This document shows positions 22,280-60,877 of a DNA stretch of 64,000 bases, piece after piece. The notes under the pieces were generated by a model that saw only the letters and a program-made list of their open reading frames with translations, searched no databases and was not told the origin of the DNA. The DNA comes from Sphingomonas sp. JUb134. GTDB taxonomy: Bacteria > Pseudomonadota > Alphaproteobacteria > Sphingomonadales > Sphingomonadaceae. Positions within the stretch are counted from its first letter, which is position 1, and each line of letters opens with the position of its first letter. The stretch covers positions 1 through 64,000 of the forward strand of contig NZ_SLYP02000004.1 of NCBI RefSeq assembly GCF_004341505.2. Reading direction: 5' to 3'. The position numbers were made by a program, and so were the translations under genes.

Positions 22280-22297
22280 GCGAGCCTCCCTTCACCG

Positions 22298-22317
22298 AAA
22301 TTGCACGCGTGCAATTT
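22298..22317. promoter_or_regulatory. parS: Putative parS site 1
   Basis: A perfect 20-bp palindrome with half-site AAATTGCACG and MluI-like centre, between parA and parB. It shares its core with 22335-22348 and 23709-23728. Confidence 0.7.
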
Positions 22318-22334
22318 TCTCCGTTCTTCCGATC

Positions 22335-22348
22335 TTGCACGCGTGCAA
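22335..22348. promoter_or_regulatory. parS: Putative parS site 2
   Basis: A perfect 14-bp palindrome TTGCACGCGTGCAA, 37 bp centre-to-centre from site 1, just after the parA stop. Confidence 0.65.
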
Positions 22349-22358
22349 TTCGGTATTT

Positions 22359-23564: not shown

Positions 23565-23708
23565 ATGCCCACCTTTCGCAATCAAGCAGATGGTACTTCA
23601 ACTTGCGCTTTTCGGTCAAGAAAATCGCGAATTGCGAAAGTGAGCATCCGCTATTCGTGTATTTTCGCCCTCCTGCGGCCCTATCCTGACTCGGTGGGGG
23701 CTACGGGA

Positions 23709-23728
23709 AAATTGCACGCGTGCAATTT
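23709..23728. promoter_or_regulatory. parS: Putative parS site 3
   Basis: A perfect 20-bp palindrome with the same half-site AAATTGCACG as site 1, placed immediately after the rep stop and about 145 bp before parA. It may also be the parA operator. Confidence 0.7.
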
Positions 23729-23729
23729 C

Positions 23730-24965
23730 CTAGCTCGGCCGTCCCCGGCGCGTAAGGAAGGCCTCGCAGAATCCCTTCCAAGACTTCTCGAGTTTCGACC
23801 CCGAGAGCGTGTTGAGACGATCCCCCATATGCTCACGGTATGCGTCTGCGATCAGGTCGACGTCCCATCCACCGCCGTGGCGCAACCCTATCTCGCGCGC
23901 CGCATTCTCGGTCACGCCGAAGTGCAGCTTACCCCGCGGGAAACGCGCCCATGGCTCAGCGTTCACCCCAGCGGAACTTTCTGGGGTGGCAAGAGACGCG
24001 GTCACGCGCTTGAGGACGTCAGCCACCGCCGCACTATCTACTGCGTCGCTGCGGGGGAGGGCGCTCTCAATGGCAACGACTTCTTCGACCGCATCCTCCC
24101 GGCGCGCCTTCCGCCCGGTTGAGTGCCGACCAAGTTCATCGACCGTCGCGATCTGCGCAGGCGCGTCCTTGGGCGCGAAACGGAACTCAATCTCGGTTAC
24201 CGCGCGGCCGCGTCGGATCTCCTGCCACTCCACCGTGTAATGGGCGAGCTGATCGATTTCTGTCTTGGCAACGGTCAGGACCTTTCGCCGTAACTGGGCG
24301 AAGTCGCCGTATTTATCCGGATCGATCCCAAGCGCCGCACGCAGGCCGACCATATCGACCTTCCACACCGGCTGACGCCGATGCAGACGAAGCGCACCCT
24401 CCTCGTAAAGCTTGAGCGCATAGGCCGACCGGAAACCCAGAACGGCCTGACGGTTCATCACCGCATAGGTTTCGGACTCCTGGATCAGGCGGCGAGCATC
24501 CGGCGTGAACTGCCATTCGATCCAGCCCGTCTCCTTACCGCCGTCTCCCACCTCCTCGACTTCTTCCCAGGAAGCCTGGATCAGGTTGAAACGCTTGGTT
24601 GTCCGCTTCCCGCGCCAAGACTTGTCGTCCTCGGCAAACAGCGTGCGATGAAGCTCCTCAAGCATATCGCCGATGCGTTCGTTGCCCTTGTGGCCGCGGC
24701 GGATATCCGCCTTTCGCATCCGGTGGGTTATGTCTTGCCACGCATCGCCGCCCGCCGTCAGGATCATCAGCGCCAGCAGGCGCGAGGAGGTGAGACTGAG
24801 AGACTGGCCCTTGACGAATCGAACCTCGACGAGCCTACCGGGTTTGACGAACTCGTCGCCGCCTTTGCGGGCGAGGGCAGCGGCCACGCGCATAGACCGG
24901 GCGGTCGAAACTTCATCGCCGCCAACGTCTTGCTCGTTTTCCGCTGGTTCTCCCATGCGATTCAC
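23730..24965 (-). CDS. Replication initiator, Rep_3 superfamily
   Basis: 411 residues. The tandem winged-helix layout of Rep_3/RepB-type initiators is suggested by GQSLSLTSSRLLALMILTAG in the first domain and by FRSAYALKLYEEGALRL with IDPDKYGDFAQLRRKVL in the second. The C-terminal tail (about 290-411) is extra. It would bind the iterons at 25038-25287 and repress itself at the inverted repeat 24987-25020. The gene order rep-parA-parB with interspersed palindromes makes this the probable main replicon of the plasmid. Confidence 0.83.
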   Translation of the reverse strand: MNRMGEPAENEQDVGGDEVSTARSMRVAAALARKGGDEFVKPGRLVEVRFVKGQSLSLTSSRLLALMILTAGGDAWQDITHRMRKADIRRGHKGNERIGDMLEELHRTLFAEDDKSWRGKRTTKRFNLIQASWEEVEEVGDGGKETGWIEWQFTPDARRLIQESETYAVMNRQAVLGFRSAYALKLYEEGALRLHRRQPVWKVDMVGLRAALGIDPDKYGDFAQLRRKVLTVAKTEIDQLAHYTVEWQEIRRGRAVTEIEFRFAPKDAPAQIATVDELGRHSTGRKARREDAVEEVVAIESALPRSDAVDSAAVADVLKRVTASLATPESSAGVNAEPWARFPRGKLHFGVTENAAREIGLRHGGGWDVDLIADAYREHMGDRLNTLSGSKLEKSWKGFCEAFLTRRGRPS

Positions 24966-24986
24966 CCCAATCTGCGGGGAAAGTTG

Positions 24987-25020
24987 CCTGTCCTGACCTC
25001 GCTCGTCAAGTCAGGACAGG
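24987..25020. promoter_or_regulatory. Rep autoregulatory operator (inverted iteron halves)
   Basis: CCTGTCCTGAC (24987-24997) and GTCAGGACAGG (25010-25020) are perfect 11-bp inverted arms around 12 bp, 22 bases upstream of the rep start. The arm repeats the GTCAGGA/GACAGGA core of the iterons, the classical design by which Rep dimers repress rep while monomers bind the origin. Confidence 0.72.
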
Positions 25021-25037
25021 CTAATTGGCGGAAATCG

Positions 25038-25370
25038 CCCCCAGGAGGTCAGGATAGAATCGCTGTCAGACTCGGTCGAAATTCCAGCGATTCTGCTGAG
25101 TCGCACAATCCGAAGGGCACGCCCCAATTGGACAGGTCAAACAGCAAGAAAATACCCACATTACCGTGCCTGGAAAGGCCTCCCCCAAGAGGACAGGATA
25201 GCCCCCAAGGGGACAGGATAAGTCCCCCATGCCGACAGGATAAAGCCCCCAAGAAGGCAGCCAATTGCCCCCATCAGGTCAGGAATGACGTCAATTCCCT
25301 TAACAAATACAATCAGTTGCTCTCCCTGAATCTATGAATCATTAGAATCTGAGAATCACCCCGCCGCTGG
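25038..25370. other. oriV: Iteron-type replication origin (oriV)
   Basis: Six copies of a CCCCCAAGNGGACAGGATA-like iteron start at 25038, 25183, 25203, 25225, 25247 and 25269. The last four are at a steady 22-bp pitch (two helical turns), and the fifth and sixth are degenerate. Downstream, about 25290-25360 is AT-rich with four GAATC repeats, a candidate unwinding element. No clear DnaA box was found. 25371-25536 leads to the Toprim gene without another feature. Confidence 0.8.
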
Positions 25371-25536
25371 CGCGCCGGGCGTTTTTCAAAATGTGATTTG
25401 AAAGAAGTGAGTCGGCGAACGCCTCCCCGACTCGCCCCACCTCCACGATCGCGCCTCAGGATAGGCCATGATGACCCCATGGCTCCAGATGGAAGAGAGG
25501 AGGGGGGCTGCCGTGGGCGAGCAAGGAGGATGAACC

Positions 25537-26391
25537 ATGCCCCTCACAGCAAAGCGCCCGACCCGAGAACTCGTCGACCTTGTCGGAACCCTCGGCGGCA
25601 AATGGTCCGGCTATGTCGCTATGTGCCGATGCCCCGCGCATAACGACAGCGACCCAAGCCTCTCGATCAGACAGGGTGATCGCGGAATCCTCGTGACCTG
25701 TTTCGCAGGCTGCGCCCGTGAAGATGTGCTCCGCGAACTCAGGCGTGTACGATCAGGCCATCACTATCCGATTCCCGATGAAGGCCAGTACCACCGACCC
25801 TCGACCGGCGCGCGCATCTGGGACCAGGCTCTCGAGATTACCGGAACGCTTGCTGAGCGCTATCTGGATCGACGCAATCTGCTTCCGGCGCCGCCCGACG
25901 TCCGCTATCACCCGCGATGCCCCTATATGCCGAAGCCGAGAACGGTCTATCAACCGGCTCTGCTCGTCGCGGTGCGCGAAATCAGCCAGCTCGTCGCCAT
26001 TCAGCGGATCTTCCTCGACCCCGCGTCCGCCGACTATGTGCGCAAGGTCATGCTTGGCGTCCCGGGCAGCGGCGCGTGGCGGGGCAGGGCAGGGGGTTCG
26101 ATCCTCGCCATCGCCGAGGGCTTCGAAACGGCGGACGCCTTCAGCCGAATGCACGACATCCCGTGCTGGGCATCGCTCGGGGCCCGCCGCCTCGACCAAC
26201 TGATTATTCCTCCCAGCGTCACCACGCTCCTGATTGCCGAAGACAACGATCTGGAGGGACGGCGAGCCGCGGCCAACGCTCAACAGCGCTACATCCGGCC
26301 AGGTCTCTCGATCGAACGTGCGCCGCCACCATCCATCTACAAGGATTGGGCCAAGGCGCTTGATGCTAACGAGCGGCTTCGCCGCATCTAG
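25537..26391 (+). CDS. Toprim-domain primase-like plasmid protein
   Basis: 284 residues from ATG 25537 with a strong AAGGAGG site. A primase-type zinc ribbon (Cys30, Cys32, His35, Cys55, Cys59 in CRCPAHNDSD...CFAGC) precedes a Toprim fold with ILAIAEGFETADAF (catalytic Glu) and LLIAEDND (acidic pair). It lacks a helicase domain. It could prime replication at the neighbouring origin or assist the downstream strawberry-notch gene; this order is common on alphaproteobacterial plasmids. It lies 78 bases before the next gene. Confidence 0.85.
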   Translation: MPLTAKRPTRELVDLVGTLGGKWSGYVAMCRCPAHNDSDPSLSIRQGDRGILVTCFAGCAREDVLRELRRVRSGHHYPIPDEGQYHRPSTGARIWDQALEITGTLAERYLDRRNLLPAPPDVRYHPRCPYMPKPRTVYQPALLVAVREISQLVAIQRIFLDPASADYVRKVMLGVPGSGAWRGRAGGSILAIAEGFETADAFSRMHDIPCWASLGARRLDQLIIPPSVTTLLIAEDNDLEGRRAAANAQQRYIRPGLSIERAPPPSIYKDWAKALDANERLRRI

Positions 26392-26469: not shown

Positions 26470-27755
26470 ATGTCCAATCTCTTCGACACGGCCGCCCAGG
26501 CTGATCGCGAGGCTGTCCGCCTCCTCCTTCCTCATCTCCAGTCCGGCGATCCCGTCCACCGCCGGGTACTAAACCAAGCGATGTCGGCGGCTTTCGGTGG
26601 GTCCGATGCCGATGGTCACTGGACCCAGCGCGATAGCTTTGAACTCCTCGAGCACGCGCTTTCCATCCATCTGCAGGCAAGCGGGTCAATTCTCTCCGGA
26701 ATGGCGGATATCCGTCCCCTGATCGCCCTCTCCGAGCGCTTGCCGACCCAGACCGTCCGCAGCGAAAATCAGATCGAATGGCAGCAATTCTCGACCCCGA
26801 TTGATATCGCGGGCATCCTCACTTTGCTGGCCGACGTGCAGCCGGAGGATGTCATCCTCGAACCGAGCGCCGGTAACGGGCTCCTGGTCGCGCAGCTCCC
26901 GACCCACAAGGCGCTCCATCTCAACGAACTGGACCCGCTTCGTCGAGGCAGGCTTCACGCCGCTTTCCCCTCGGCAATCGTCACAGGCCACGATGGAGCA
27001 ACGATCAACTCGACACTCGCTTCGTTTGATCGGCCAACGCTGATCCTTATGAATCCGCCGTTCTCACGGTCCATCGGCCGCGGAGCTGACGACTATGCCG
27101 CTGTTCGCCATCTGCAGGCGGCACTGCGTCGCCTGGTCCCGGGTGGCCGACTGGTTGCGATCATGCCCGACTGGTTTGGCCCGGGCGCCCGGATGCGCGA
27201 CCAGTACGAAACCGTTTTGCGCGACGTGACCGTCCGAAGCGCCATTCGCCTGGAAAAATGCTACCAGAAGCACGGGACCTCGATCGCGGTTCGCATCTTC
27301 GTCATCGACAAGGTCCCGGGCAAATCGCCGCCCGCGGTCATCCAGCGCGCGTCGATCGCCGATCTCATCGATGTCCTCGTCATTCCCGAACGATCGTCCG
27401 CACGGCCCAATGTGGCGGTGCCCGCTCCGAAGCGATCGACGGGGGTGGCCCTCTTCCGCGCGGTCAAGAGCAGCCGACCAGGGCCTCGTGCCTATCACGC
27501 CCCGACACGCAACAACGTCCTACCGGTCGAATATTCGAAGCTCGAGGTTGCTGCTCCGCTGCTCGAGCAGACCGGCGTCTATCTACCCTACCGCCCGAGC
27601 CGCATTAGCTTCGCCAAGGCTGGTGAGCATCCGACAGCCCTCGTCGAATCCGTTGCGATGGGGTCGATCCCGGCACCGATCCCGGACTACGTGCCATCTC
27701 TCCCCGAACGGACCGTCAGCGAACGTCTTCTATCGGCCTCGCAGCTCGAGACCGT
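26470..27755 (+). pseudogene. Strawberry-notch methylase/helicase copy 1, N-terminal part (interrupted)
   Basis: This encodes the adenine-methylase-like N-terminal part of a large methylase/helicase protein, homologous along its length to the gene at 34329-36794. SAM-domain features are EPSAGNGLL and the catalytic NPPF tetrad in ILMNPPFSRSIG (about 195). The homology runs to SASQLETV at 27755 and stops where an insertion begins; the frame then closes at 27798 with foreign residues. The downstream half resumes in register at 29419. Large proteins of this type resemble phage/plasmid anti-restriction or DNA-processing proteins such as P1 DarB. Confidence 0.82.
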
Positions 27756-27784
27756 AGCACATTGGGAAGCGCTGGTTTGGGAGC

Positions 27785-27907
27785 CGCTATGGCCCTGATG
27801 AAGACAAGGCCGCGTAGCGGCCGCAGGCTTCATCAGGGCAAGCCATGACCGGTCAGCAGGTATCTAAAGTGAGGTTGTCGAGACAACACTTTGGAGGCTG
27901 ACCGACC
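27785..27907 (+). ncRNA. Structured leader of the IS110 element, candidate bridge RNA
   Basis: Two nested hairpins lie before the recombinase gene. The first has CCCTGATGAAG (27793-27803) pairing with CTTCATCAGGG (27828-27838) around an inner GGCCGC/GCGGCC stem. The second has AAAGT/ACTTT enclosing GTTGTC/GACAAC (27866-27892). IS110-family recombinases use a bridge RNA encoded in a non-coding end. Structure supports a candidate only; loop-target pairing was not established. Confidence 0.4.
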
Positions 27908-29179
27908 ATGACCAAGCTCACCTCTACGCCTGCCGGCGCCGTGCTGGTAGCTATCGATATGTCCAAGAGCCGGCAGGAGGTTCTCATCGAGCGACCGGAA
28001 GGCGGCCGGCGCCGGCGGATGACCGTCATGGCAACCAGGCAGGACTATGACGGCTTTGCCGAAAAACTCGCTGCCATCGGGCGCCCTATCATTGTCGGGT
28101 TCGAGGCGACGGGTAATTACCATCGCACGCTGGCACATCGGCTGCTGACGGCAGGGTTCGAGCTGCGCCTCATCTCGTCGGTCGCGCTCGCCAGAACGCG
28201 CGAGGCGCTGCACAATGGCTGGGACAAGAACGACCCCAAGGACGCGCAGGTCATCCTGCACATGCTGCGGATCGGTGCGACGCAGCGCTACGTCGATCCT
28301 CTCGCCGCGGGCATCAATGACCTGCAGGAACTCTCGAAGACCCACGAAACGATCTCTAGGATGAAGACGCAGACCTGGCACCGCATCCTGACCCACTACC
28401 TGCCGCTGTACTTCCCCGAGATCGCCCGCTTCGCAGGCAACAGCCGGTCCGACTGGTTTCTCGCGCTCATCGAGCGGTTCCCCACTCCTGCCAGCATCAC
28501 CGCGCTCGACGCTGGGGCATTCTCGGCAGCTGCCTGGCCTCTCATCGGCCGCAAGGTTTCCAAGGCCCGTCTTGTCAATGACATATACGAAACGGCCTGC
28601 GCTTCGGTGGCTCTGCCGGTCCCGGAGGATTCGGCAGCAATTACCATGTTCCGCATGGTCATCGCGCAGGGACGCAGCCTCATCCACCAGCGTGACGAGA
28701 TAGAGCGGCTTGCCCATGACAGGCTGGCCGAGCATGTTGATTATAAGCTGCTGCGCAACATTCCGGGCATTGGTCCGATTAACGCGCTGACCATTCTGGC
28801 CGAGGCCGGTGATTTGCGTCGCTTCAACCATCATCGACAGTTCCTGAAGTTCTGCGGCCTCGATCTCGCAACGTGCCAGTCAGGCACGTTTCGTGGCCGC
28901 ACCAAGCTGTCCAAGTACGGCAACGCGCGTCTGCGCCGCACCTTCTGGATGGCTGCCCAGGTCGCCGCGCGTCAGCGCGACAACAGTTTCCGTGACAAGC
29001 TCGGACGGTACACCGCCGGGCACGCGGACGATGCCGACCGTCGCCGCAAGGCGATGACGGCGCTCACCGCCAAGATGGCGCGCGTGGCTCACGCCGTCGT
29101 CAAGACGGGGACAGAGTACCGGCCGTTCCTCGAACGGTCGGATGCCAGGTGGAAGGACCCCTCTCTGCAAGTGCCGTGA
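27908..29179 (+). CDS. IS110-family transposase (DEDD recombinase)
   Basis: 423 residues. The N-terminal RuvC-like DEDD domain starts VAIDMSKSRQEVLIE and includes FEATGNYHRTLAHRLL and DKNDPKDAQVI. The C-terminal Transposase_20 domain has IPGIGPINALTILAEAGDLRRF and a conserved Ser near CQSGTF, with KYGNARLRRTFW after it. This two-domain layout defines IS110/IS1111 recombinases, which insert without classical DDE chemistry. The gene looks intact. A hairpin (29180-29200, AGGG-CGCTCG/CGAGCG-CCCT) directly follows it. Confidence 0.9.
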   Translation: MTKLTSTPAGAVLVAIDMSKSRQEVLIERPEGGRRRRMTVMATRQDYDGFAEKLAAIGRPIIVGFEATGNYHRTLAHRLLTAGFELRLISSVALARTREALHNGWDKNDPKDAQVILHMLRIGATQRYVDPLAAGINDLQELSKTHETISRMKTQTWHRILTHYLPLYFPEIARFAGNSRSDWFLALIERFPTPASITALDAGAFSAAAWPLIGRKVSKARLVNDIYETACASVALPVPEDSAAITMFRMVIAQGRSLIHQRDEIERLAHDRLAEHVDYKLLRNIPGIGPINALTILAEAGDLRRFNHHRQFLKFCGLDLATCQSGTFRGRTKLSKYGNARLRRTFWMAAQVAARQRDNSFRDKLGRYTAGHADDADRRRKAMTALTAKMARVAHAVVKTGTEYRPFLERSDARWKDPSLQVP

Positions 29180-29418
29180 GGGCGCTCGTCGAGCGACCCT
29201 GTAGATAATGTTCGGGCCTTCCACCTGGGTGCGTATCTCGTTTTAAGGATGGTGAGGACCACGGCCGCCCCGGCGCCGCTGGATCCTGTGTTTGCTATGG
29301 CAGGGAGCGATCCCGTTGACGGTGGAAGCCATCTGGCTCAGATTGCATGCCGCGCCGATGGTTGTCGGCGCATGGATATCTGCTGGCCAAAACCCGCCGC
29401 TGCTTCCAGACATAGGAC

Positions 29419-30588
29419 GTTGTCTATGCGGGCCACGCCTGGGCTCAATGGATCCCCGGAAACTTCAAACCCGACAAAGAGGGCGTCGGCCTGATCCTCG
29501 CCGAGGACGGTCATACTTATCGCAAAGGATTCTTTCTTGGCGACGGCACCGGCGCCGGCAAGGGACGCCAGATTGCGGCCTGCATACTCGACAACTGGCT
29601 GCAGGGCCGTCGCCGCAATATCTGGGTCTCCAAGAACGCCCCTCTCCTCGAAGATGCGCGCCGCGATTGGACGGCGTTGGGTGGGCTCAGCGGTGACATT
29701 CAGCCACTTTCCAACTGGAAAATCGATGAGCCGATCGCCCTCGATCAGGGTGTGTTGTTCGTAAGCTATCCGACCCTGCGCTCCATGCGGGGCGATTCGA
29801 CGCGGTTGAAGCAGATCATCGATTGGGCCGGCGCTGACTTCGAGGGTGTCATTGCTTTCGACGAAGCTCATGAGATGGGCGGCGTCGCAGGCGGGGAGGG
29901 GGCTCTTGGCGCCAAGGACGGATCCCAGCAGGGCATCTGCGGGGTGCTGCTACAGAACCATCTACCGGCGGCACGGATTCTCTATGCCTCGGCCACCGGC
30001 GCGTCGGTCGTCAACAATCTCGCCTATGCCGTGCGCCTCGGGCTATGGGGACCGGGCACGGCCTTTCCCGATCGCGAGCAATTCATCAGCGGGATCAGCA
30101 AAGGCGGTATCGCAGCGATGGAGCTTGTCGCGCGCGACCTCAAGGCGACGGGTCTCTATGTGGCCCGGGCCCTCAGCTTCGCTGGCGTCGAGTATGAGAT
30201 CCTGCGGCACGAGCTGACCCCCGCCCAGATCGAGATCTACGACACCTACGCCGACGCCTGGTCGATCATCCATCAGAACATGGAGCGGGCGCTCGAACTG
30301 ACGGGCGTGGTCGACGGACTGGAAAATGCGACACTTAATAGCGGGGCCAAAGCCTCCGCCCGCTCGCGTTTCGAGTCCACCAAGCAGCGCTTCTTCGGCC
30401 AAGTGCTGCTCTCGATGAAGCTGCCAACCGTGATTGCCGCCGTCCGGGAGCACCTGAAGGCGAACCAGTCGGTCGTGATGCAACTCGTCACCACCGCCGA
30501 ATCCATCCTCGACCGGCGCCTGGGTTCGCTCAGTCCGGATGAACGCGCCGAACTGGAGATCGATCTGTCTCCCCGCGAATACGTGTAA
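29419..30588 (+). pseudogene. Strawberry-notch methylase/helicase copy 1, ATPase part (truncated by the RIT element)
   Basis: The frame resumes as VVYAGHAWAQWIPGNF and carries Walker A GTGAGKGR, the Walker B box DEAHE and SATGASVVNNLAY, matching the strawberry-notch NTPase domain of the second copy. It ends LSPREYV and a TAA supplied by the RIT end (30584 onward). The C-terminal helicase domain expected after LSPREYV is missing. With the upstream insertion, this copy is broken twice. Confidence 0.85.
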
Positions 30589-30695
30589 TGTGGAGCTCCA
30601 CATTACACATATTCTTTGCAGTCGCAGTTTATGTCGAGCGTGGCGGCGAGAGACGCAGGTTTCCTTCGGTTTTCCATGATTTCACTCCAGATAAT
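30584..30695 (+). repeat. Left 112-bp inverted repeat of the RIT element
   Basis: Identical in reverse complement to 34222-34333. Its outermost 24 bp form a self-complementary palindrome (half TGTAATGTGGAG) that provides the TAA ending strawberry-notch copy 1. Confidence 0.9.
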
Positions 30696-30726
30696 ATGCG
30701 GGTTAGAGGGAGTGTTCGAAGACGGG

Positions 30727-31731
30727 TCAGGCCCGCCTTCGAACGTCGGTGAGCATTGTGATCAAGGCGTCGGAAGGCGGCTTGAAGCGCCCCGGCTTGA
30801 TCGCAGGGGCACCGTGGGCTGCGAGAATCTGCAGCTTCTCTTCGGGATCGGCGCGCAAGTAGGTCTCGGTGCTCTGGATACTGGCGTGGCCGAGCCATAA
30901 TGCGACCTTGCGAATGTCCCCCGTCGCCGCGAGCGTGTGCATCGCGCAAGAATGACGAAGCACGTGGGGTGTGACGCGCTTCCCAAGGATCGACGGCTGC
31001 TTCGTCGCTGCCGTCTTGACGTGCTCGGCCAATCGGAACGCAAATCCGTCGCGGGTCATCGGCTGCCCGTTGGCATTGAGGAAAATCTCGGTGACCTCAA
31101 CTTGAGGCCGGATCGCAAGCCATGCGCGCAATGCGATCTGGGTCTCCTTCCACAGCGGCAGGACCCGTTCACGTCGCCCTTTGCCCATGATGTGCATGGT
31201 GGACAGGGAGCGGTCCGGGAAATCGCCCAGTTGCAGCGTTACGAGTTCCGACACCCTCAGTCCGCCAGCATAGGTAAGATGCAGCATCGCGCGATCACGG
31301 GTGCCGAGGCGTGTCCGGGGATCGGGTGTATCGAGCAAAGCCTTGATCTCGGCCCGGTCGAGGTAATCGATCAGCGCCTTGTCTGTCTTCTTGGTCGGGA
31401 TTGCTCTGACACGGAGTGCCTGATCGAGGCAGGCTGGAATCCGGTACTCGATGTATCGGAAGAAGGATCGGATCGCGGCGAGCCTGCCATTGCGGGTCCG
31501 CACGCAGCTGCCGCGGCCGATCTCCACATGATCGAGGAAGGCCATGATCATGTCTGTGCCGAGATCCTCAACCTCGAGATCGGTCGGTCGGCGCTTCAGC
31601 CGATCGGCAGCGAACTGGACGAGGAGGACGAAGCAGTTGGCATAGGTCTTCACCGTGTGCGGGCTGACGGCGCGTTCGCGCGGCAGATGTTCCCGCAGAT
31701 ATGCCGAGAGATGGGGAGCAAGCGCCGTCAT
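30727..31731 (-). CDS. RIT tyrosine recombinase, third gene (RitC-like)
   Basis: 334 residues, XerC/D-like. An N-terminal SAM-like core-binding domain (LREHLPRERAVSPHTVKTYANCF) is followed by the catalytic domain with Arg in YAGGLRVSELVTLQ, the HxLRHSCA box and GHASIQSTETYLRAD carrying the nucleophile Tyr. Start ATG 31731 overlaps the stop of the middle recombinase by 4 bases, so the three are probably translated together. Confidence 0.88.
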   Translation of the reverse strand: MTALAPHLSAYLREHLPRERAVSPHTVKTYANCFVLLVQFAADRLKRRPTDLEVEDLGTDMIMAFLDHVEIGRGSCVRTRNGRLAAIRSFFRYIEYRIPACLDQALRVRAIPTKKTDKALIDYLDRAEIKALLDTPDPRTRLGTRDRAMLHLTYAGGLRVSELVTLQLGDFPDRSLSTMHIMGKGRRERVLPLWKETQIALRAWLAIRPQVEVTEIFLNANGQPMTRDGFAFRLAEHVKTAATKQPSILGKRVTPHVLRHSCAMHTLAATGDIRKVALWLGHASIQSTETYLRADPEEKLQILAAHGAPAIKPGRFKPPSDALITMLTDVRRRA

Positions 31732-32660
31732 GCCGCTTCTCCTTGAAAAAGTTGCTCGCTTGCAGCCGCAATGTCGCGCAGCAGCACTGGCGTGGCTTCG
31801 AGATACCAGTACGTGTTGGCGATCGACGCGTGCCCCAGGTAGACACTGAGACCGGCCATGTGGTGGGCAATGGCCTCCCTCTCACGCGGGCAGGACTCAA
31901 GCGAGCGAACAGCGAACGTATGTCGCAGATCGTGGAGTCGCATGCCTGCCGTACCGGTTGCTCCACGATATCCGAGAAGCCGGGCCAACCTGACGAACAC
32001 GACGTGGGCGCGCACCTTGTGCGGCGCCCGCCCCCGGATAGTGACGAACAGGTCATTACACTTGGCCGGGTGCTTCGCGCGGATCGCAATGTAGGCTTCG
32101 AGTGCTTGGCGCGTCGATGGCTGCAAGGCGATCAGTCGCTGCTTGCCGAACTTGCCGTTGCGGACGACCAGCCCATCCTCGACCAGATCGTTGCACTGTA
32201 GCGCGAGAGCCTCGGAAATCCGGAGACCTGTCGCCGCGAGCAGGCCGAACAGGTAATGGTACGTGTATGGGCTAATCGTGCCATGGGGCGGAACGTTCAA
32301 TGCCGCCGCCATGATCGCCCGCACCTGGTCCGCTTCGATTATGGTCGGAGTGGGACGTGGCCGCTTCCCCCGGCCGAAAACGCCGACAGGCGGGACTTCG
32401 TTGTCTGGGTCCTCGGCATGAGCGAAAAGGCTGAAGTTACGAGCAGCGTCGTACCTATGGCGAGCCACGTTTTGCGAGCTTGCCGTGTGGCACCAGTCGT
32501 AGATGCGCTGCACTCGGGTGTGCCGGTCACCGAAGCGTTCAGCGAAAGCGGCGTATTGGCGCAGCAGTCGTTCCTGTTCCGAGAACTTCCGCCCCAAGCT
32601 GCGATACAGCGAGACGTATCTGGCAATCTGCGTGCTCAGCATGACGGTTCTCCCGGCCAT
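31728..32660 (-). CDS. RIT tyrosine recombinase, second gene (RitB-like)
   Basis: 310 residues. Catalytic elements are ATGLRISEALALQ, MRLHDLRHTFAV and YLGHASIANTYWYLEAT with the likely nucleophile Tyr. It has an N-terminal core-binding region (RYVSLYRSLGRKFSEQERLLRQY). It overlaps the first recombinase gene by 25 bases and the third by 4. In RIT elements all three proteins are thought to be needed for movement; none looks damaged here. Confidence 0.88.
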   Translation of the reverse strand: MAGRTVMLSTQIARYVSLYRSLGRKFSEQERLLRQYAAFAERFGDRHTRVQRIYDWCHTASSQNVARHRYDAARNFSLFAHAEDPDNEVPPVGVFGRGKRPRPTPTIIEADQVRAIMAAALNVPPHGTISPYTYHYLFGLLAATGLRISEALALQCNDLVEDGLVVRNGKFGKQRLIALQPSTRQALEAYIAIRAKHPAKCNDLFVTIRGRAPHKVRAHVVFVRLARLLGYRGATGTAGMRLHDLRHTFAVRSLESCPREREAIAHHMAGLSVYLGHASIANTYWYLEATPVLLRDIAAASEQLFQGEAA

Positions 32661-34183
32661 GGCTGCGCGATTTTCATGAGCATCGGCAGGTCGACCTTGG
32701 CGTAGATGGCGGTGGTCTCGGGCGAGCTGTGGCGCAGGATCGTTCCAACGGACTCCAGCCCTGCGCCCGCGCGCAGCAAGTTGGTGGCAAGCGAATGCCG
32801 GAAAATGTGCGATCCGGTCGGCACGCCTTCGATCCCGCCGCGCTCATGCGTGCGTGCAACGATGCCGGCGATCTCCGCCGATGAGCGGAACGAACGGAAC
32901 GGGGCTTGCGCGCGCACGAACAGATGCGGATCGGCGGTCTTGGGACGCGCCGTGGCAATGTAGTCCAGGATCGCGTCACCGACGTCCTGAGGCAATGGCA
33001 GGCGATCAGGCCGACGCGTCTTGCCCTTGACCGTCAGGTGGCCCGAGCGCCAGTCGATATCGTCGAGGTGCATATCCCGAATATCACCGGCACGCAGGCC
33101 AAGCCGGGCGAGCAGGAGAATGATGGCCTTGTCCCGAACTTCCACCGGGCGATCAGTCGGACATGCGCCGATGATCTGCTCGATCGTTGCCGGGTTAACG
33201 TGCCGGGGCAGCGTCGAAAGACGGTAGCGTTGCACTGATGGGATCGCGTGCAACAAAGCTGGACGGCAAATACCCTGCACGACCAGGAACCGAATATAGC
33301 TCCGTATTATCGTGACGAGCAGTGATGCCGAACCCGGCGTCTCCTTGCTTCGTTGTTGAAACGCCCGTCTGAGGACGGCTGCATCCCATTGTGAAGGCTC
33401 GCCGAGCATAGGCGCGAGCCGCCTGATATCGGCCCGGTAGCGCCGGATCGTCTCATCGGTCGCGCCGCGGTGTTGCTTGAGCCATGCCAGATATGCCGCC
33501 ATGTGCGGGTCGTCATCCGACACCAGTTCGACTGAAGGGATGACACCGCGGTCGCGCAAGAACTCGACGAAGTGCCGAGCGCCTCGCCGCCGCCGCTTCG
33601 CGCCCGAGGCAACAAGCTTGCCTCGCTTGCGCCAGACCGGACATCGACAATCATGCGCGCCGTACTGGTCGATGATCGTGTCATCGATATCGGCCCATTG
33701 TCGTCGCGCAATGCGAAGCCAGGCCGCGAAATGCTCGGCCTCGGATCGATAGGACTGGGCCGGTCCTTGCGCGAGTTGCAAGCGATCGATCCCATCGAAA
33801 TAGTCGGCGAGGTGCCGTGGCAGATCGTCGATCCCGTCGTCGACACCGACGTAGCCTTGATCCTCCAGGAAGCGGACGAAGCGCCTGACTCGCGCTGCAA
33901 TGTCCGCCTTATAGACTGGCTGCTGCGCCGAATACCGGTGGCAACGGCACCGATGCTTCTCGAACCGCCGAACGGTCCGATCGTCGATCGTGCGGATCGC
34001 GATCCCATGCAGTTCCATCCAATGCAGGAAATGACGGGCCGCAGCGCCAAACAGAATCGCACTGCCTGACCTCTCGTCGAGCGACAGAGAGGAGAGGAAT
34101 GCGGTGAGTAGAGCGTCGTGACTGGGCGGGTCTTCGACCCGGAGCCGGGCCGCTCGAAACGACAATAATGATCTTGATCGCAT
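32636..34183 (-). CDS. RIT tyrosine recombinase, first gene (RitA-like)
   Basis: 515 residues, longer than a standard integrase owing to an N-terminal extension containing CRCHRYSAQQPVYKAD and DCRCPVWRKRGK, Cys/His-bearing segments that may bind metal. The catalytic domain has ARLGLRAGDIRDMHLDDI, GSHIFRHSLATNLLRAGAG and RHSSPETTAIYAKVD. ATG 34183 has AAGGA upstream and sits 38 bases inside the right inverted repeat, so its promoter probably lies in the repeat. The first gene of the three. Confidence 0.88.
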   Translation of the reverse strand: MRSRSLLSFRAARLRVEDPPSHDALLTAFLSSLSLDERSGSAILFGAAARHFLHWMELHGIAIRTIDDRTVRRFEKHRCRCHRYSAQQPVYKADIAARVRRFVRFLEDQGYVGVDDGIDDLPRHLADYFDGIDRLQLAQGPAQSYRSEAEHFAAWLRIARRQWADIDDTIIDQYGAHDCRCPVWRKRGKLVASGAKRRRRGARHFVEFLRDRGVIPSVELVSDDDPHMAAYLAWLKQHRGATDETIRRYRADIRRLAPMLGEPSQWDAAVLRRAFQQRSKETPGSASLLVTIIRSYIRFLVVQGICRPALLHAIPSVQRYRLSTLPRHVNPATIEQIIGACPTDRPVEVRDKAIILLLARLGLRAGDIRDMHLDDIDWRSGHLTVKGKTRRPDRLPLPQDVGDAILDYIATARPKTADPHLFVRAQAPFRSFRSSAEIAGIVARTHERGGIEGVPTGSHIFRHSLATNLLRAGAGLESVGTILRHSSPETTAIYAKVDLPMLMKIAQPWPGEPSC

Positions 34184-34221
34184 GTTGGTTCCTTCGACTT
34201 GTTCAGGTCGAGGGAACCGTA

Positions 34222-34333
34222 ATTATCTGGAGTGAAATCATGGAAAACCGAAGGAAACCTGCGTCTCTCGCCGCCACGCTCGACATAAACTGCGACTGCA
34301 AAGAATATGTGTAATGTGGAGCTCCACATTACA
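34222..34333 (-). repeat. Right 112-bp inverted repeat of the RIT element
   Basis: Perfect reverse complement of 30584-30695. Here the outer palindrome extends to 32 bp (34306-34337) because the host flank continues the symmetry. Confidence 0.9.
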
Positions 34334-36794
34334 CATACTCGCGCGGGGAGAGCTCGATGTCGAGGTTGGCGCGCTCCTCGGCACACAGGCCGGCAAGGGC
34401 GCGGTTGAGCATCGCCTCCGAGGTCGAGACGAGCTGCACCACCACGCTGTCACCGCGGGCAAGGTCCTTGGCGATCGCGGGGATCAGCGATGGGAGCTTC
34501 ATCCCGATCAGGAGCTGGCCGAAGAACCGCTGCTTGGTCGACTCGAAGATCGACAACGCGGCGGCCTTGGCCCCGCTGTTGTAGGTATCCTTCGAGAAGC
34601 TGTCGGTGACGCGCGTCGCATCGAGGGCGGCGCGCAGGTTGGCGTGGATGATCGCCCATGCATCGGCATAGGCGTCGTACACCGCGATCTGGTCGACCGT
34701 GAGCTGATGCTCCAGGATGTCGTACTCGACGCCGGCGAAGCTCAGCGCGCGCGCGGCGTAGAGCCCCTGCATCTTGAGATCGCGCGCGATCAGCTCCAGC
34801 GCCGCGATCCCGCCCCGGCGCAGGCTTTCCACGAACGCCTTGCGGTCGGCGAAGGCCGTGCCCGGCCCCCACAACCCGAGGCGTGTGGCGTAGGCGAGAT
34901 TGTTCACGTCCGATGCGCCCGTGGCGGAGACGTAGAGGACGCGGGCGCGGGGAAGGAGGTTCTGCAGGCGGACGCCGGCGATCCCCTGGTCGGACCCGTC
35001 CTTGGTGCCGAAGCGGCCTTCGCCGCCGGCGACACCCGCCATCTCGTGCGCCTCGTCGAACACGATCATGCCGTCGAAGCCGTCCCCCAGCCAGTCGAGG
35101 ATCTGGCGAAGCCGTGTGCCTTTGTCGCCGCGGTTGGAGCGCAGCGTCGCATAGGTGAGGAAGAGTACGCCCTCGCCGGCGCCGACGGGTACCCCGAGCT
35201 TCCACTGGTTGAGGTGCTGGATGTCGAGTGCGAGGCCGCCCACCGCGGTCCAGTCACGGCGCGCATCCTCCAGCAGCGTCTCGGTCTTGGAGATCCAGAC
35301 GTGCTTGCGACGGCGGCGGAGCCACTGGTCGAGGATGATCGAGGCGACCTGGCGGCCTTTGCCGGCGCCGGTGCCGTCGGCGAGGAAGAAGCCGGTTCGG
35401 TAGGGCTGGCCCGCGTCGTCAGGCGTCAGGGACAAGCCCTCTTCGGCGGGCAGGAACCGGCCCGGGAGATCGCGCTCGAAAGCATCGCTGGCGTAGATCA
35501 GCGTCTCGAGCTGGGCGTCCGACAGGACCTTGCCGTCGACGACGTGGGCCGGAAGCTGAGGCCGGTAGCTCGGCCGCGGCGCGGTGATCGAGCCCATGGC
35601 AATCGATTCCACCAGCGCCGTCGGGTGCTGCGACGCGCACCCGATCGCGATCCGGCTCGGCCGATAGGGCAGGTAGACGCCCACGGCCTCCTCCACGGGC
35701 GCCGGCTCGGCCATGACGGTATAGTCGATGTTGCGGGTGGCATTGGACACGCGCTCGCGCGTGGTCGGTGCCGGGAGGCGGCGCCGTGCCGAGAGTCCGC
35801 CGAGGAGCGAGCCGGAGGAGGGGCGCATGGAGCGCGGTACCGGCGAGGGAGCGGGCGACGCGGGCGCCTGGACGGCGGCGATGTGGGCGAGGGCGGCCGC
35901 CAGCGTCTCGCAGGGCGTCAGGTCGGCCCCCCCGGGCTGGCCCTTTTCGAGGAGCATGATCTTCACGGCCTGGCCAGTGCCGTGCTTGGCATAGGCGTTA
36001 GCCGGCAGGAGGAGGTGCAGGGTAAGGCCGCACCCTTCGCTGGCCTTGATCCAGGCCCGGCTCGACGTGTCGACGCGGTCGGGGAGGATGGCGGCGCAGC
36101 GGCCACCCGGGGCAAGCCGCATCAGCGCGGCGCGGAGGTGGCGGAACGCCGCCAACGGATCGGCGTGACGGCCGATGCTGCGCGAGAAAGGCGGATTGAT
36201 AAGCAGCGCGGTCGGCCGGATCGTCGGGGATAGCAGATCGTGTATCAGCTCGGCGTCGTGGCGGGTGACGGATACGCCCGGAAAGGCGGCCTGAAGCATC
36301 TCGGCGCGGGCAGGATCGAGCTCGTTAAGGACGAGGCTGGCGCCAGCGCGGCGCGCAAAGGCGGCGAGGAGGCCGGTGCCGGCGGAAGGCTCCAGCACCA
36401 GGTCGGTGGGCGATAGGCGAGCGGCGAGCGCCGCGAGATACGCGATCGGCGCGGGAGTCGAGAATTGCTGGAGCGCGATCTGCTCCTCGCTCCGGACGGT
36501 GTGCGTGGGCAGACTCGCCACTAGGTCGGAAAGCGCAGCAAGGCAGGCCATAGGCTCGAACGGCAGGACCGCGCGCTCGAGGTGGAACACCTGGGCGAGT
36601 TCCAGCATGTCGTAAGCGTCGCGTAAGCACCAGCGCCCGTCAGCCGAGGATCGGCCATAGGCCTGCTCCATTACCCACAGCAGCGTGTCGCGCTGGAGCG
36701 AGCCGTTCCTGGCGATCGCCTCCGCGACAGCCTTGGCGGCGGTGATGGGGGGTTCGGTGAAATCGAATTCGAGGGCTGCGGCTGAGGTGCGCAT
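34329..36794 (-). CDS. Strawberry-notch methylase/helicase copy 2, C-terminally truncated
   Basis: 821 residues from ATG 36794 (GGAGCCCC upstream). An N6-adenine methylase-like domain has EPSAGTGLL and NPPF in LLINPPFSRSIG (about 201). A Pro/Ala/Ser-rich linker leads to the strawberry-notch P-loop ATPase: Walker A GTGAGKGR (about 474) and DEAHE (about 580). It ends LSPREYV with TAA from the RIT palindrome, so the helicase C-terminal domain of full-length relatives is absent. The remaining domains are uninterrupted, so a shortened protein could still be made. Possible roles are DNA modification or anti-restriction. It could equally be called a pseudogene. Confidence 0.82.
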   Translation of the reverse strand: MRTSAAALEFDFTEPPITAAKAVAEAIARNGSLQRDTLLWVMEQAYGRSSADGRWCLRDAYDMLELAQVFHLERAVLPFEPMACLAALSDLVASLPTHTVRSEEQIALQQFSTPAPIAYLAALAARLSPTDLVLEPSAGTGLLAAFARRAGASLVLNELDPARAEMLQAAFPGVSVTRHDAELIHDLLSPTIRPTALLINPPFSRSIGRHADPLAAFRHLRAALMRLAPGGRCAAILPDRVDTSSRAWIKASEGCGLTLHLLLPANAYAKHGTGQAVKIMLLEKGQPGGADLTPCETLAAALAHIAAVQAPASPAPSPVPRSMRPSSGSLLGGLSARRRLPAPTTRERVSNATRNIDYTVMAEPAPVEEAVGVYLPYRPSRIAIGCASQHPTALVESIAMGSITAPRPSYRPQLPAHVVDGKVLSDAQLETLIYASDAFERDLPGRFLPAEEGLSLTPDDAGQPYRTGFFLADGTGAGKGRQVASIILDQWLRRRRKHVWISKTETLLEDARRDWTAVGGLALDIQHLNQWKLGVPVGAGEGVLFLTYATLRSNRGDKGTRLRQILDWLGDGFDGMIVFDEAHEMAGVAGGEGRFGTKDGSDQGIAGVRLQNLLPRARVLYVSATGASDVNNLAYATRLGLWGPGTAFADRKAFVESLRRGGIAALELIARDLKMQGLYAARALSFAGVEYDILEHQLTVDQIAVYDAYADAWAIIHANLRAALDATRVTDSFSKDTYNSGAKAAALSIFESTKQRFFGQLLIGMKLPSLIPAIAKDLARGDSVVVQLVSTSEAMLNRALAGLCAEERANLDIELSPREYV

Positions 36795-36914: not shown

Positions 36915-37872
36915 TCAGGCCGCCTCGGACGCCATCTCCACGTCTTCGTACACCTTGAGCTGCTCGTCGGACCTGACATCGTCCGATCCTGCCAGCGTCG
37001 CGATCTGCGGAACGATCGGCCGGGCTCGCTGTGCGTGCCGGGCCGTGAACGTCACGAACGTCTGCAGGCGAGGCCGCCCAGCGGTGGGTACCTTTTCGCT
37101 GTGCAGCGACAGCGAGAAGCCCGGCAGGCTGTCCTGCTCGGCCACCTTGGTGATCTCCGCGCGCGCATTCCGAAGCCGGGCTGCGCCGCACCCCATGCGC
37201 TGCGCCACCTCCTCGAGACCGAGCGTAAATGGCTGGTCGGGCTGGCAATGGAACATAGCGATCTCGTAAAGTCGACGCTGGATCGGAGTCAGCGTGAAAT
37301 AGTCGAGATCATAGGCCGCGAGACGACGATCGCGAAGCACGGCGCGATAGAACCAATCGCAGACCGTCACCTCGATATATTTGACGCGCTTCTCGCCGCG
37401 TACATCCTCCGCGTAGACTACGCGAAAGTGATCGAGCCAGGAGAAGTTGTCTTCCTGGGTTTCACCCCCCCGTCGCAATGTTCGTTTCGACAACGGTATT
37501 CCTGAGCCGCCGCAGAGCATCGATCAGGTAGGTGTAGGAACGCTTGCTCGCGTTCGAACCGGTGATCCGGAACAGATCGTGCGCGGTGAAGCGGATGGTT
37601 CGCGCAGGCGAGCCACCCCGGTCGAGGAGATCCGTCATGATGCTCGCGACGTAGAGCAGGATCTCCTTGTCGTAGATCGTCGCGATCCCGTGTTTCCCCG
37701 ACGACACCTCAATGCTCACGCCTTCGGCCTGAAACGTCATGGGTTCGAGCTGTCGGGCCTTCTTCAAAGCGAAGAACGGAAACTCGGCCACGGTCCGTTC
37801 GCCCAGAATCTCTCCGAGCAGGGGGCTATCGAGCGTAAACAGGTTGCCTTGTATCTCCATGGGTCGCGCCAT
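36915..37872 (-). pseudogene. repA: Replication initiator protein A (RPA family), frameshifted
   Basis: Two frames together encode one RepA/RPA-type initiator of about 318 residues. The first part (ATG 37872, GAGGAG upstream) runs NLFTLDSPLLGEILGERTVAE to TNIATGG and stops at 37462. The second resumes GGETQEDNFSWLDHF and runs to 36915. The break is at a run of seven C on the plus strand (37465-37471); six would join the frames. It is either a real inactivating slip, a sequence error or, less likely, programmed slippage. The region 36795-36914 holds nothing obvious. Confidence 0.8.
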
Positions 37873-37946
37873 CGGGGGACTCCTCGAGGGAGGTGATGAC
37901 AAACATTGGCGCCCCGTTGCAACGCCCGATCCGCATTCTCCCGGGC

Positions 37947-38399
37947 TTTCGTGCGGTAAAGCACGAGCTTTAGAGCCTTTAAGCGCCGATCTTCGACCGA
38001 TCTGCCGCCTCGATCCCGTTCAAGGGACGAGTGCCGACTGGAATGCTGATCAGATCCGATTCGCTTTCGGCCCTGCCGCCTTGATTCGTGCTTTACCGCA
38101 CGAAAGTGCCGGTCCGTAGCGCGTGAGCGGCCCGGATGTGGTGAGTTACCGCACGAAAGGTCATCCAAACAGGTCAATGCGGGCCAGCTTCAGGCGGGAA
38201 AGCGCACGTAAGCCAAGCCCCGCGGACGGTGATGAGGACGAAAACGCGCACGAAAGCCGGTAGAGCATCGATGTAGCGGCGCCCTACCGGATTCTGAACC
38301 GCGTCAGGATCTGGAGTGGAATAGCGCACGAAAGGGAGCGAGCCGCCCTGCGTGTCGATGGGCGAGGTTCGAGCGACGTTCGTGCTTTACCGCACGGAA
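37947..38399. repeat. Iteron-like repeat cluster A of the second replication region
   Basis: Copies of TTCGTGCTTTACCGCACGAAA, itself a 7-bp-arm inverted repeat, lie at 37947-37967 (reversed), 38085-38105 and 38379-38399. Partial copies ending GCACGAAAG lie near 38141-38159, 38247 and 38324. The stretch 37903-38441 has no gene. It separates the RPA-type repA from repC and probably forms an origin or initiator-binding region. Confidence 0.75.
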
Positions 38400-38441
38400 G
38401 GGTCGTAGGGGCGCGGCTCGCAGCGGCGGGCAACCACCCGA

Positions 38442-39680
38442 TCACTGGAGCGCCGGGCTGGTGCGGAAGCCCCAGAGGCTCTTCGACAGATCGAGTTCGC
38501 CGCGATGAGCGCGGGTCACCATTCCAGCGAAATAGGCGCCCGGCGTCAGGCGGATTTCATCGCGAGCGTCCCGTTCCGCTGTGATCATAACGGCGATCGA
38601 CGCCCCATCGGCGCCGAGATGGTCGAGCGCATCAACCCAGGTCCCGGTTCGTATGCCTAGATCGTTCCGAAGCCGGGCAGCGGCCCGATGAAGATCGGTC
38701 CAGCCCGGCCGGTCACGATCTACGTACATCGCCGTGGTTGGAAACATCTCGACGAGCTCACGGGGCGAGGTCTTGAAGTCGCTCTTGGACGGCGATGCCG
38801 GGAGCTCGGCTTCACCGTCATGTCCGCCCTCCCGATCAAAACTACAATCTCGCAAAGCCTGTACGGATTTGAGAGAGGGGTTGGTTTGTATATGTATGAA
38901 GGGTGAGGATTTTGACCCTGAGCCGTCTGTTTCTACGACAAACATGAACTCGTCGATCGTGCGGCCGATCTCCGCTTCGACAGCCGGAAGACCCGCAATC
39001 GCGGCCTCATAGGCCGTTGCGTCGCGGCTCGTGCGCGCAGCTGCGGCTTGCTGGGCGATCTTCTCGATGGCGTCCTGAAGCGCGATCCAGTGCGAGCCGG
39101 TCAGGCGCATGTCGGCCGCCTGGGCGAGCGCCTGCGCAACCATGCGACGTACCCGCGCAATCTCCTGGCGGCCGAGTTTGTCCATCCGGGAGAAGGCGCT
39201 GTGAGCCTCTGCTGCGGCTTTCAGCTCCTGAAAGCGGACGCGTAGAGGAGAGAGATCGATCCCATAGGCGCTGATGATCTCGCCCGTGTCGCTTCTCTGT
39301 CCACGACGACGACCGTGGGCGGCGTCGCGCATCGTGACGAGAGCCAAGGCGCGGAGCTGGCGGAGCCGGGCCTTGATCGCACTCTCGGTGACACCGGCGA
39401 GCTCAGCCAGCGTGTAGTTGCTCGGCCACGCGATCGGCCGGGCATCGCCCTTGTAATCGTCGGGGCGGGTGTAGCCGATCAGATGCTTCAGCGTCTCGAG
39501 CGCTGACGCGCTCAGTCCGATGGCCGTCTTGGCGCCGTCGAGGATGCGGTAAAGATCGTTGCGATCGACATCGCCCGCGGTCTCCATCCGCGCTGCCAAC
39601 TCCCGCTCGATATGTCGGGTGAGCGCGGAGATCGGGCGGGCTCCGGTCCGCCCCGTAAAGGCGGTTTGGGTATAGGACAT
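38442..39680 (-). CDS. repC: RepC-type replication protein
   Basis: 412 residues from ATG 39680 (GGGGAG upstream). The N-terminal region (RNDLYRILDGAKTAIGLSASALETLKHLI) and winged helix (WPSNYTLAELAGVTESAIKARLRQLRALALV) match the RP-C family of repABC initiators. The C-terminus contains a variable linker and SPRELVEMFPT. RepC normally initiates replication from an origin inside its own gene. No repA/repB partition pair of the repABC type adjoins it; instead an RPA-type repA and CGTGC...GCACG repeats flank it, an unusual arrangement. Confidence 0.85.
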   Translation of the reverse strand: MSYTQTAFTGRTGARPISALTRHIERELAARMETAGDVDRNDLYRILDGAKTAIGLSASALETLKHLIGYTRPDDYKGDARPIAWPSNYTLAELAGVTESAIKARLRQLRALALVTMRDAAHGRRRGQRSDTGEIISAYGIDLSPLRVRFQELKAAAEAHSAFSRMDKLGRQEIARVRRMVAQALAQAADMRLTGSHWIALQDAIEKIAQQAAAARTSRDATAYEAAIAGLPAVEAEIGRTIDEFMFVVETDGSGSKSSPFIHIQTNPSLKSVQALRDCSFDREGGHDGEAELPASPSKSDFKTSPRELVEMFPTTAMYVDRDRPGWTDLHRAAARLRNDLGIRTGTWVDALDHLGADGASIAVMITAERDARDEIRLTPGAYFAGMVTRAHRGELDLSKSLWGFRTSPALQ

Positions 39681-39958
39681 CGTTCGACACTCCCCGTGGG
39701 AGGCCGTCACCAGACAAAGCTATAGCGTGGCGCGAGGCGCGCGATCTTGAACGGGGCGGGGGAGGGTGCTACCTACAGCTACTGTCGTAGTAGGCCTCAC
39801 GCTTGCCGGCGTGTGGTAGCGGATCTCCGCAGGGTGCCCGGCCTCGTGCCGGGCATTCTTTATTTGGTCACAGCCGGCTCCCTGTCCCGCCGCGATTCCC
39901 TTTGATCCGGCGTCGAAACCAGAAGCGTGGAAAACGGCGCAGCGTTCAAGGCAGCTGA

Positions 39959-59158: not shown

Positions 59159-59253
59159 GCACGGCTTGTCCCCATTGAACAGAAGTCTGTTTTGGACAAC
59201 ACTGACCCCACGCAAATCAAGGCTTTTCGAGGCCTAATTCCAGAAGGGTTCAA
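59159..59253. promoter_or_regulatory. Putative res site and divergent promoters of the Tn3 element
   Basis: The 95-bp gap between tnpA and tnpR contains the dyad AACAGA-AG-TCTGTT (about 59178-59191). The res site of a Tn3 element normally lies here. Confidence 0.45.
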
Positions 59254-60658: not shown

Positions 60659-60792
60659 CGTCACCCTGAACTTGTTTCAGGGTCCATCAATCCGAAAGCC
60701 CAGTTTATGATCGGCCAACCGAGATGGCGGCACGAGCCACCACGCTCCGGCACCAATCGCCCGATGGATCCTGAAACAAGTTCAGGATGACG
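60659..60792. repeat. REP-like inverted repeat pair 2
   Basis: Arms at 60659-60688 and 60763-60792 (core CCTGAACTTGTTTCAGG) are inverted with two mismatches. Such CCTGAACTTGTTTCAGG elements are common between chromosomal genes of sphingomonads. No gene lies in 60438-60838. Confidence 0.72.
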
Positions 60793-60877
60793 CAAGGCGG
60801 GGGCGCGATGTCCGCTCCCCACCCCTTCTTGCCGTTTCGCTTAGGGTGTCATTTCGCCCTCAGCCGGAACCGACCCC

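Follow-up and report, generated by a model that had tools for sequence, protein, structure and literature searches.

A recombinases-in-trio lineage in plasmid strawberry-notch genes and the junction of a two-replicon Sphingomonas plasmid

Introduction

Recombinases-in-trio (RIT) elements have in common three overlapping tyrosine-recombinase genes, inverted repeats and a length of about 3.5 kb. They are widespread, and the parts of the literature that deal with their movement describe it as undemonstrated or untested: PMC3414803, where it gives a 28-9 bp inverted repeat with an overlapping palindromic sequence, treats mobility as yet undemonstrated; in PMC10214605, RITs appear in Table 1 with 34-bp inverted repeats and with target specificity, empty site and movement not formally tested, and the Discussion states that no RIT transposition in the laboratory is known. 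A passage of PMC2864759 notes RITs that had inserted in radC and in an IS66 tnpA gene. Here we analyse a RIT element at positions 30577-34340 of a 64,000-nucleotide stretch of Sphingomonas sp. JUb134 DNA (the whole stretch is called the window), where each of its sides adjoins the 5' part of a different strawberry-notch (SNO) gene.

Tn916 is flanked by coupling sequences, which are variable sequences brought from its previous site. Its heteroduplex spacer is mentioned in PMC10214605, which in its passages on the strand-biased circularizing integrative elements (SEs) and Tn554 describes a 6-bp core beside one end that moves with the element, and the placement of the 6 bp of the target itself beside one end. 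GInts, in the part of PMC5385486 concerned, have three recombinase-related genes, integrate site-specifically and give attachment-site variants on excision.

The RITs of SNO genes differ from the described RITs in having one fixed target codon and a turnover of 6-bp cores, and their terminal inverted repeat (TIR) is about 84-112 bp long and contains a translatable leader, against the 34 bp tabulated for RITs in PMC10214605. Like SEs, they appear to put 6 bp of the host beside one end and 6 bp of the element beside the other; unlike SEs and Tn554, they have two cores around a palindrome at one end and flip at each inferred step, and the window element holds the recombinase trio only and not the SE core set intA, tfp, intB and srap. 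Compared with Tn916, SNO RITs have nearly a single target gene and seem to retain two successive former sites. GInts possess a fourth essential gene (ginD) and cargo, whereas the window element has neither and no room for them. We found no report of RIT insertion in SNO genes, or of a core shift, in the literature searched, outside which lies the work of Ricker et al. 2013 on RITs.

Results

SNO RITs meet the gene at 5' junctions of the form GAR-core-palindrome-core-TIR (L084, an error-rich assembly, departs at GAR) and at 3' junctions of the form TIR-GAA-core-gene. We call the outer core at the 5' junction S5, the inner core there I5 and the core at the 3' junction S3. The window element and the genes around it are made up as follows.

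26470-30588, plus strand: SNO gene A, 5' part only, interrupted by IS110; frame ends ...LSPREYV*
30577-30579, plus strand: GAA, gene A side; the whole junction arrangement is mirrored at 34303-34340
30580-30585, plus strand: outer 6-bp core S5, gene A side, TACGTG, element-borne
30586-30605: 20-bp palindrome, supplies the TAA stop of gene A
30606-30611, minus strand: inner 6-bp core I5, gene A side, TATGTG
30584-30695, plus strand: left TIR, 112 bp, 100% to the right arm, includes the palindrome
30586-34331: RIT element with its two terminal 20-bp palindromes, trio on the minus strand
30727-31731, minus strand: RitC-type tyrosine recombinase, 334 aa (Pfam Phage_integrase 3.7e-31)
31728-32660, minus strand: RitB-type tyrosine recombinase, 310 aa (Pfam Phage_integrase 4.1e-16), overlaps both neighbours
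32636-34183, minus strand: RitA-type tyrosine recombinase, 515 aa (Pfam Phage_integrase 1.3e-26)
34222-34333, minus strand: right TIR, 112 bp, 100% to the left arm
34306-34311, plus strand: inner 6-bp core I5, gene B side, TATGTG
34312-34331: 20-bp palindrome, supplies the TAA stop of gene B
34332-34337, minus strand: outer 6-bp core S5, gene B side, TATGTG, element-borne
34329-36794, minus strand: SNO gene B, 5' part only, 821 aa with an AAA_34 domain; frame ends ...LSPREYV*

The recombinase genes (34183-30727) are adjacent and overlap by 25 and 4 bp, as expected of a RIT trio, and the TIRs with their palindrome agree with RIT ends; about 84-90 bp of the 112-bp TIR are common to 3' ends elsewhere. 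The RitA, RitB and RitC names follow gene order, not family models. RitA is given two core-binding domains in the relevant part of PMC8138268, and Pfam finds a SAM-like domain only at 230-303 of the window RitA.

Genes A and B converge on the element and are both cut after ...LSPRE. They are different SNO homologues, the first and second pieces of gene A being 42% and 62% identical to gene B in amino acids; frames and identities thus bear out an earlier note on this DNA, which had seen a RIT between two different homologues cut at the same codon. That note also read both ends as LSPREYV followed by the TAA of the element. The cut after LSPRE and the element-borne stop stand, but YV does not belong to the host: the core is TATGTG in the closest uninterrupted relative of gene A and TACGTG in gene A itself, and at the position of TATGTG in gene B, two relatives of that gene carry TTCGTC and TTCCTC. 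By this comparison the host sequence is ...LSPRE only, and both window genes end in YV because the Y-V codons, like the TAA, come with the element. In the intact SNO protein P0001 (1,406 aa) Pfam places AAA_34 at 392-711 and Helicase_C_4 at 885-1138; the RIT cut falls between them, near residue 824, and gene B has AAA_34 and lacks Helicase_C_4.

To place this locus among its relatives we used a survey of 80 sources: the window, L009-L016 (eight, from plasmids and its own genome), L030-L087 (58 genome contigs) and L090-L102 (13 plasmids). The plasmid loci represent 19 of 27 plasmid records, H5 and H18 being omitted as apparent repeats of H4 and H17, together with four distant records (one of which came up later as L167) and two with an end only; counts may hold several loci from one strain. 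A flank of at least 24 nt at one end or more was present in 65 of the 80, the 15 others including many contigs that end at the element. Sixty-four of these 65 lie at the same SNO codon, comprising 49 ordinary 5'/3' insertions, eight with the 3' end only, four with the 5' end only, two 5'/5' cases (the window and L063) and one 3'/3' case (L074); the last (L073) is in another gene. The 49 copies agree with the earlier expectation that a single insertion leaves the 5' and 3' halves of one gene, and site-specific insertion into a conserved codon run, also proposed there, is what the compared loci indicate. A second collection of 397 family genomes gave 29 new loci, of which 15 were examined and 12 had recognisable ends, all 12 in SNO, although several share all cores with earlier loci and are probably from the same species. 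Because distant relatives in Dinoroseobacter shibae pDSHI03 (Rhodobacterales) and Sphingobium amiense also lie in SNO, at about the same position, comparison suggests that the SNO preference of this lineage is old. A long terminal repeat was looked for around the pDSHI03 relative and none was found.

The origin of the three cores was examined by comparison with uninterrupted genes, 39 of 49 interrupted genes having a 3' flank at least 80% identical to that of one of 31 such genes. S3 was identical to the core of the intact gene in 15/39 and matched it in amino acids in 37/39, as against 5/39 and 19/39 for S5 and 3/39 and 12/39 for I5. When S3 was shuffled 2,000 times, identical matches averaged 3.5 with a maximum of 9. 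Equally, in eight pairs of interrupted genes with 3' flanks at least 95% identical, S3 was equal in all eight, S5 in 25% and I5 in none. S3 is, on this comparison, the host's own 6 bp. S5 and I5, which are often codon pairs of intact SNO genes (TATGTG, TTCCTG, GCCATC, TATATC), look like the cores of earlier hosts. TATGTG is one of the commonest, with 8 occurrences in S5, 10 in I5 and 8 in S3 among the 50 two-ended copies.

In these 50 two-ended 5'/3' copies, L073 among them, the trio runs with the gene in 28 and against it in 22. Ten pairs have bodies that are identical letter for letter, and in six of the ten the S5 of the child equals the I5 of the parent, the I5 of the child equals the S3 of the parent and the orientation is inverted. 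With S5 and I5 shuffled 20,000 times, no pair fitted in 16,216 shuffles, one in 3,494, two in 274, three in 15 and four in one. The four identical-body pairs within one strain, at different sites, all fit (L093/L094, L056/L057, L098/L100 and L014/L101, from S. xenophagum C1 with p2 -> p1, S. chungbukense, S. yanoikuyae SHJ and Sphingobium sp. YBL2), the SHJ pair being less informative for its repeated cores; such pairs are what mobile RITs would leave. L046 -> L048 -> L047 reads as a two-step chain, with the second step at 99.97% body identity. A same-orientation rule, SE-like with entry through the outer core, fitted 0/10 pairs and was rejected. For the window, the shift model required TATGTG as the host core of gene A, which was noted beforehand, and the uninterrupted sister gene on p1 of Sphingomonas morindae NBD5 has TATGTG.

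The two ends also bear on expression of the split gene. TAA directly follows the core at 58/58 5' ends; the selection of these ends, by resemblance to a palindrome starting TAA, accounts for part of this count. In the distant L147, L148 and L167 the palindrome starts TTA and gives no stop there. At 3' ends the TIR reads TATCTGGAGTGAAATC-ATG (with 1-2 bases changed in some copies), and a leader of 21 codons follows in the reading frame of the 3' half. A ribosome site, a start and a leader in frame are in this way supplied by the TIR. The frame of the leader is open in 27/27 distinct variants, which alone is weak evidence because several other frames are also open (one forward and two reverse in 27/27, the third reverse in 26). 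Differences between divergent variants fall at codon positions 1, 2 and 3 in the numbers 694, 619 and 1,242, counted over non-independent pairs. The leader has L-D-I....K-E at the same offset as the host's L-D-I....R-E. With L073 left out, the 3' frame is at least 580 codons long at 52 of 69 3' ends, runs off the contig at 13 and is shorter at four (L009, L086, L092 and L095). Together these features suggest that both SNO fragments may be made and used.

The element separates two sets of replication genes.

21263-26391: left plasmid module, with a ParB-like gene 21263-22279 (minus), ParA 22359-23585 (minus), Rep3 initiator 23730-24965 (minus) and toprim 25537-26391 (plus)
36915-39710, minus strand: right plasmid module, with replication initiator A and RepC 38442-39710

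Since the first 14,304 bases of the 77,565-bp contig C4 recur at its end (14,304/14,304 identical), the window represents a whole circular plasmid of 63,261 bp. Its left side is 95.7-96.4% identical to S. morindae NBD5 plasmid p1, which has an intact SNO gene followed by ParB and zincin genes, and the last 1,168 bp of gene A are 96.4% identical to it. The right side resembles plasmids of S. aliaeris (78.8% overall) and S. insulae (79.2% overall), and S. aliaeris has an intact SNO gene to which the 5' part of gene B is 80% identical. Because the replication genes differ between its two sides, comparison indicates that two plasmids are joined at the element, one replication module per side.

Seven SNO matches occur in the genome, three being the window pieces and four the halves of two split genes on contig C2. 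The 3' half of gene A or B was not found in this genome, nor was a plasmid carrying an orphan 3' half of either among the relatives examined. The earlier note had pointed to sister plasmids for the missing halves; these yielded no orphan 3' half, but a plasmid 95.7-96.4% identical to the left side and relatives of the right side (~80%) do carry uninterrupted genes.

Discussion

In the scheme that we propose, an integrated copy reads 5'gene-GAR-c1-palindrome-c2-TIR...TIR-GAA-c3-3'gene, where c3 would be the current host's own 6 bp and c2 and c1 the cores of the previous two hosts. At the next jump c3 and c2 would travel with the element, which would enter through c2 by way of a circular intermediate that we infer, so that the cores shift one place per jump and the element flips relative to the gene. 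The core shift would then be sequence evidence for moves from parent to daughter. It would also let recent hosts be read from the cores and give a three-recombinase system a reaction scheme that can be tested.

For the window, a member of this RIT clade, whose insertions fall at a single conserved site in SNO genes of plasmids (LSPRE-xx-x-DYL), would have resided in gene A on a plasmid with the Rep3/ParAB module, and gene B, on a second plasmid with a RepC/RPA module, would have received a daughter copy oriented the other way round with respect to its gene. A crossover between the copies, by homology within the body or by recombinase action at a core, could have given a cointegrate with 5'A-RIT-5'B and 3'A-RIT-3'B junctions, both kinds being expected in one cointegrate if daughter copies are inverted relative to their genes. 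The 3'A-RIT-3'B side, and with it the two 3' halves and the genes downstream, may later have been lost, leaving the 63-kb two-replicon plasmid. Recombination between elements with loss of both 3' ends, as the earlier note envisaged, agrees with the absent 3' halves, with L074 as the expected reciprocal 3'/3' product in another genome, and with L063 as a second 5'/5' case, in which a pNL1-like backbone (ParB, ParA and RepA 99.8-100%) is joined to another SNO family. A shared target gene could in this way serve as a portal for fusing unrelated plasmid backbones.

Other origins of the junction were weighed. An assembly chimera, with two SNO::RIT loci collapsed onto one RIT copy, might be suspected where three full copies are repeated in one genome, as repeats cause misjoins, and several surveyed draft contigs of about 3.7 kb do end at RIT ends. 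Yet the window copy shares only 86% identity with the other two, which come with 5' and 3' halves of their own; this genome yielded no orphan 3' half, and the contig closes as a circle over 14,304 identical bases, so such an artefact seems very improbable. The neat TAA ends of both frames would fit a RIT lying between two convergent genes that naturally end at SPREYV; natural ends of this kind had been named in the earlier note as evidence against its reading. SNO matches at E <= 0.001 occur in 158 of the 397 family genomes, some of them weak, and most of those listed are full-length frames of about 1,400 aa that cross the insertion site; none was noticed to end at SPREYV without a RIT. Gene B also lacks the C-terminal helicase domain and gene A is intact on the sister plasmid, and this explanation, which we rejected, is hardly credible.

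An inversion or crossover between two SNO::RIT copies of a single plasmid would need no plasmid fusion, and contig C2 of the same genome does hold two SNO::RIT loci. Each side of the window element, however, has its own replication module and is syntenic with a different plasmid type, and a simple inversion would retain the 3'/3' side; we consider this improbable. Direct fusion by the recombinases, the 3' end of one element with the inner core of another and no homologous crossover, would give the same product, with which the cores at both junctions are consistent. Nothing separates it from a homologous crossover, no breakpoint being readable because the body is uniform (99.97% identical to L009 and L030), and we hold it to be somewhat unlikely. 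As a reading of these sequences, site-specific insertion followed by recombination of two copies and disappearance of the 3' sides has good support, and the whole explanation, in which a SNO-site RIT clade, the fusion and the shift rule are combined, appears quite likely.

Several points weigh against it. L073 (8843-12563) is in another gene, without a Pfam match, at the similar run E-SI-F-DFV. Four of the ten identical-body pairs misfit the shift (L009/L030, L015/L093, L015/L094 and, by one base, L010/L049), and the fit of the window is weak, consistent but undiagnostic, because TATGTG is common. L074 is possibly a misjoin because its assembly has several RIT copies and broken recombinase frames, and no parent plasmid with the window RIT in gene A or B was found among the relatives examined. 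The model also offers no explanation of why entry should always be through c2.

SNO-type ATPases coupled to adenine methylases have been proposed, in the part of PMC5512222 that treats them, to protect incoming DNA from restriction. We tentatively entertain the further idea of a plasmid-gene-specific RIT lineage whose ends act as a three-place shift register of the last three sites, which flips at every jump and which, through the stop, ribosome site, start and leader of its ends, leaves a working two-piece helicase-methylase gene, perhaps with an anti-restriction role. If so, parent and daughter would always be opposite relative to their genes, and crossovers between them would preferentially give head-to-head plasmid fusions like that of the window. 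If true, the split-gene design would let an element spare its host replicon in an unusual manner.

Additional observations

Gene A carries a further insertion.

27756-29417 (about), plus strand: IS110-family insertion in gene A, from an alignment gap against L135 and Pfam; transposase 27908-29179

The contig overruns the start of the circle, window positions 63262-64000 (739 bases) being a copy of positions 1-739. Replication initiator A (36915-37902) is in two overlapping frames, from a frameshift or a sequencing error, and two Tn3-family transposase genes are present (56261-59215 and 60787-61848), the second one shorter.

At L073, too, one side supplies TAA and the other an in-frame leader, and the target run is E-xx-x-D[FY]. 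In some copies (L090:6255-7559, L016 and other 5.1-kb copies) an extra 434-aa gene without a Pfam match lies between RitC and the inverted repeat, where the SHJ copies L098 and L100 also have an IS256 transposase gene. In the pDSHI03 relative a DEAD/DEAH helicase gene (L166:2415-4856), possibly cargo, separates the trio from the SNO 5' half. Metagenome bins labelled Chloroflexi, Rhizobiaceae and Hylemonella also contain this RIT or one closely related to it (L032, L059 and L067 with SNO flanks, L071 without a flank), perhaps as mis-binned sphingomonad plasmid contigs.

A second RIT family is found near SNO residue 711 (ADAW-[AT]-I / IH) in L012:2880-6679, L009, L091, L093-L095, L097 and L101. 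A leader like that of the first family was sought in it, and in L012, which was read closely, an in-frame stop precedes the middle piece. Its inverted repeat is 39-52 bp long and unlike that of the first family (two copies checked, L012 and L101), and several SNO genes are cut into three pieces by both RIT families.

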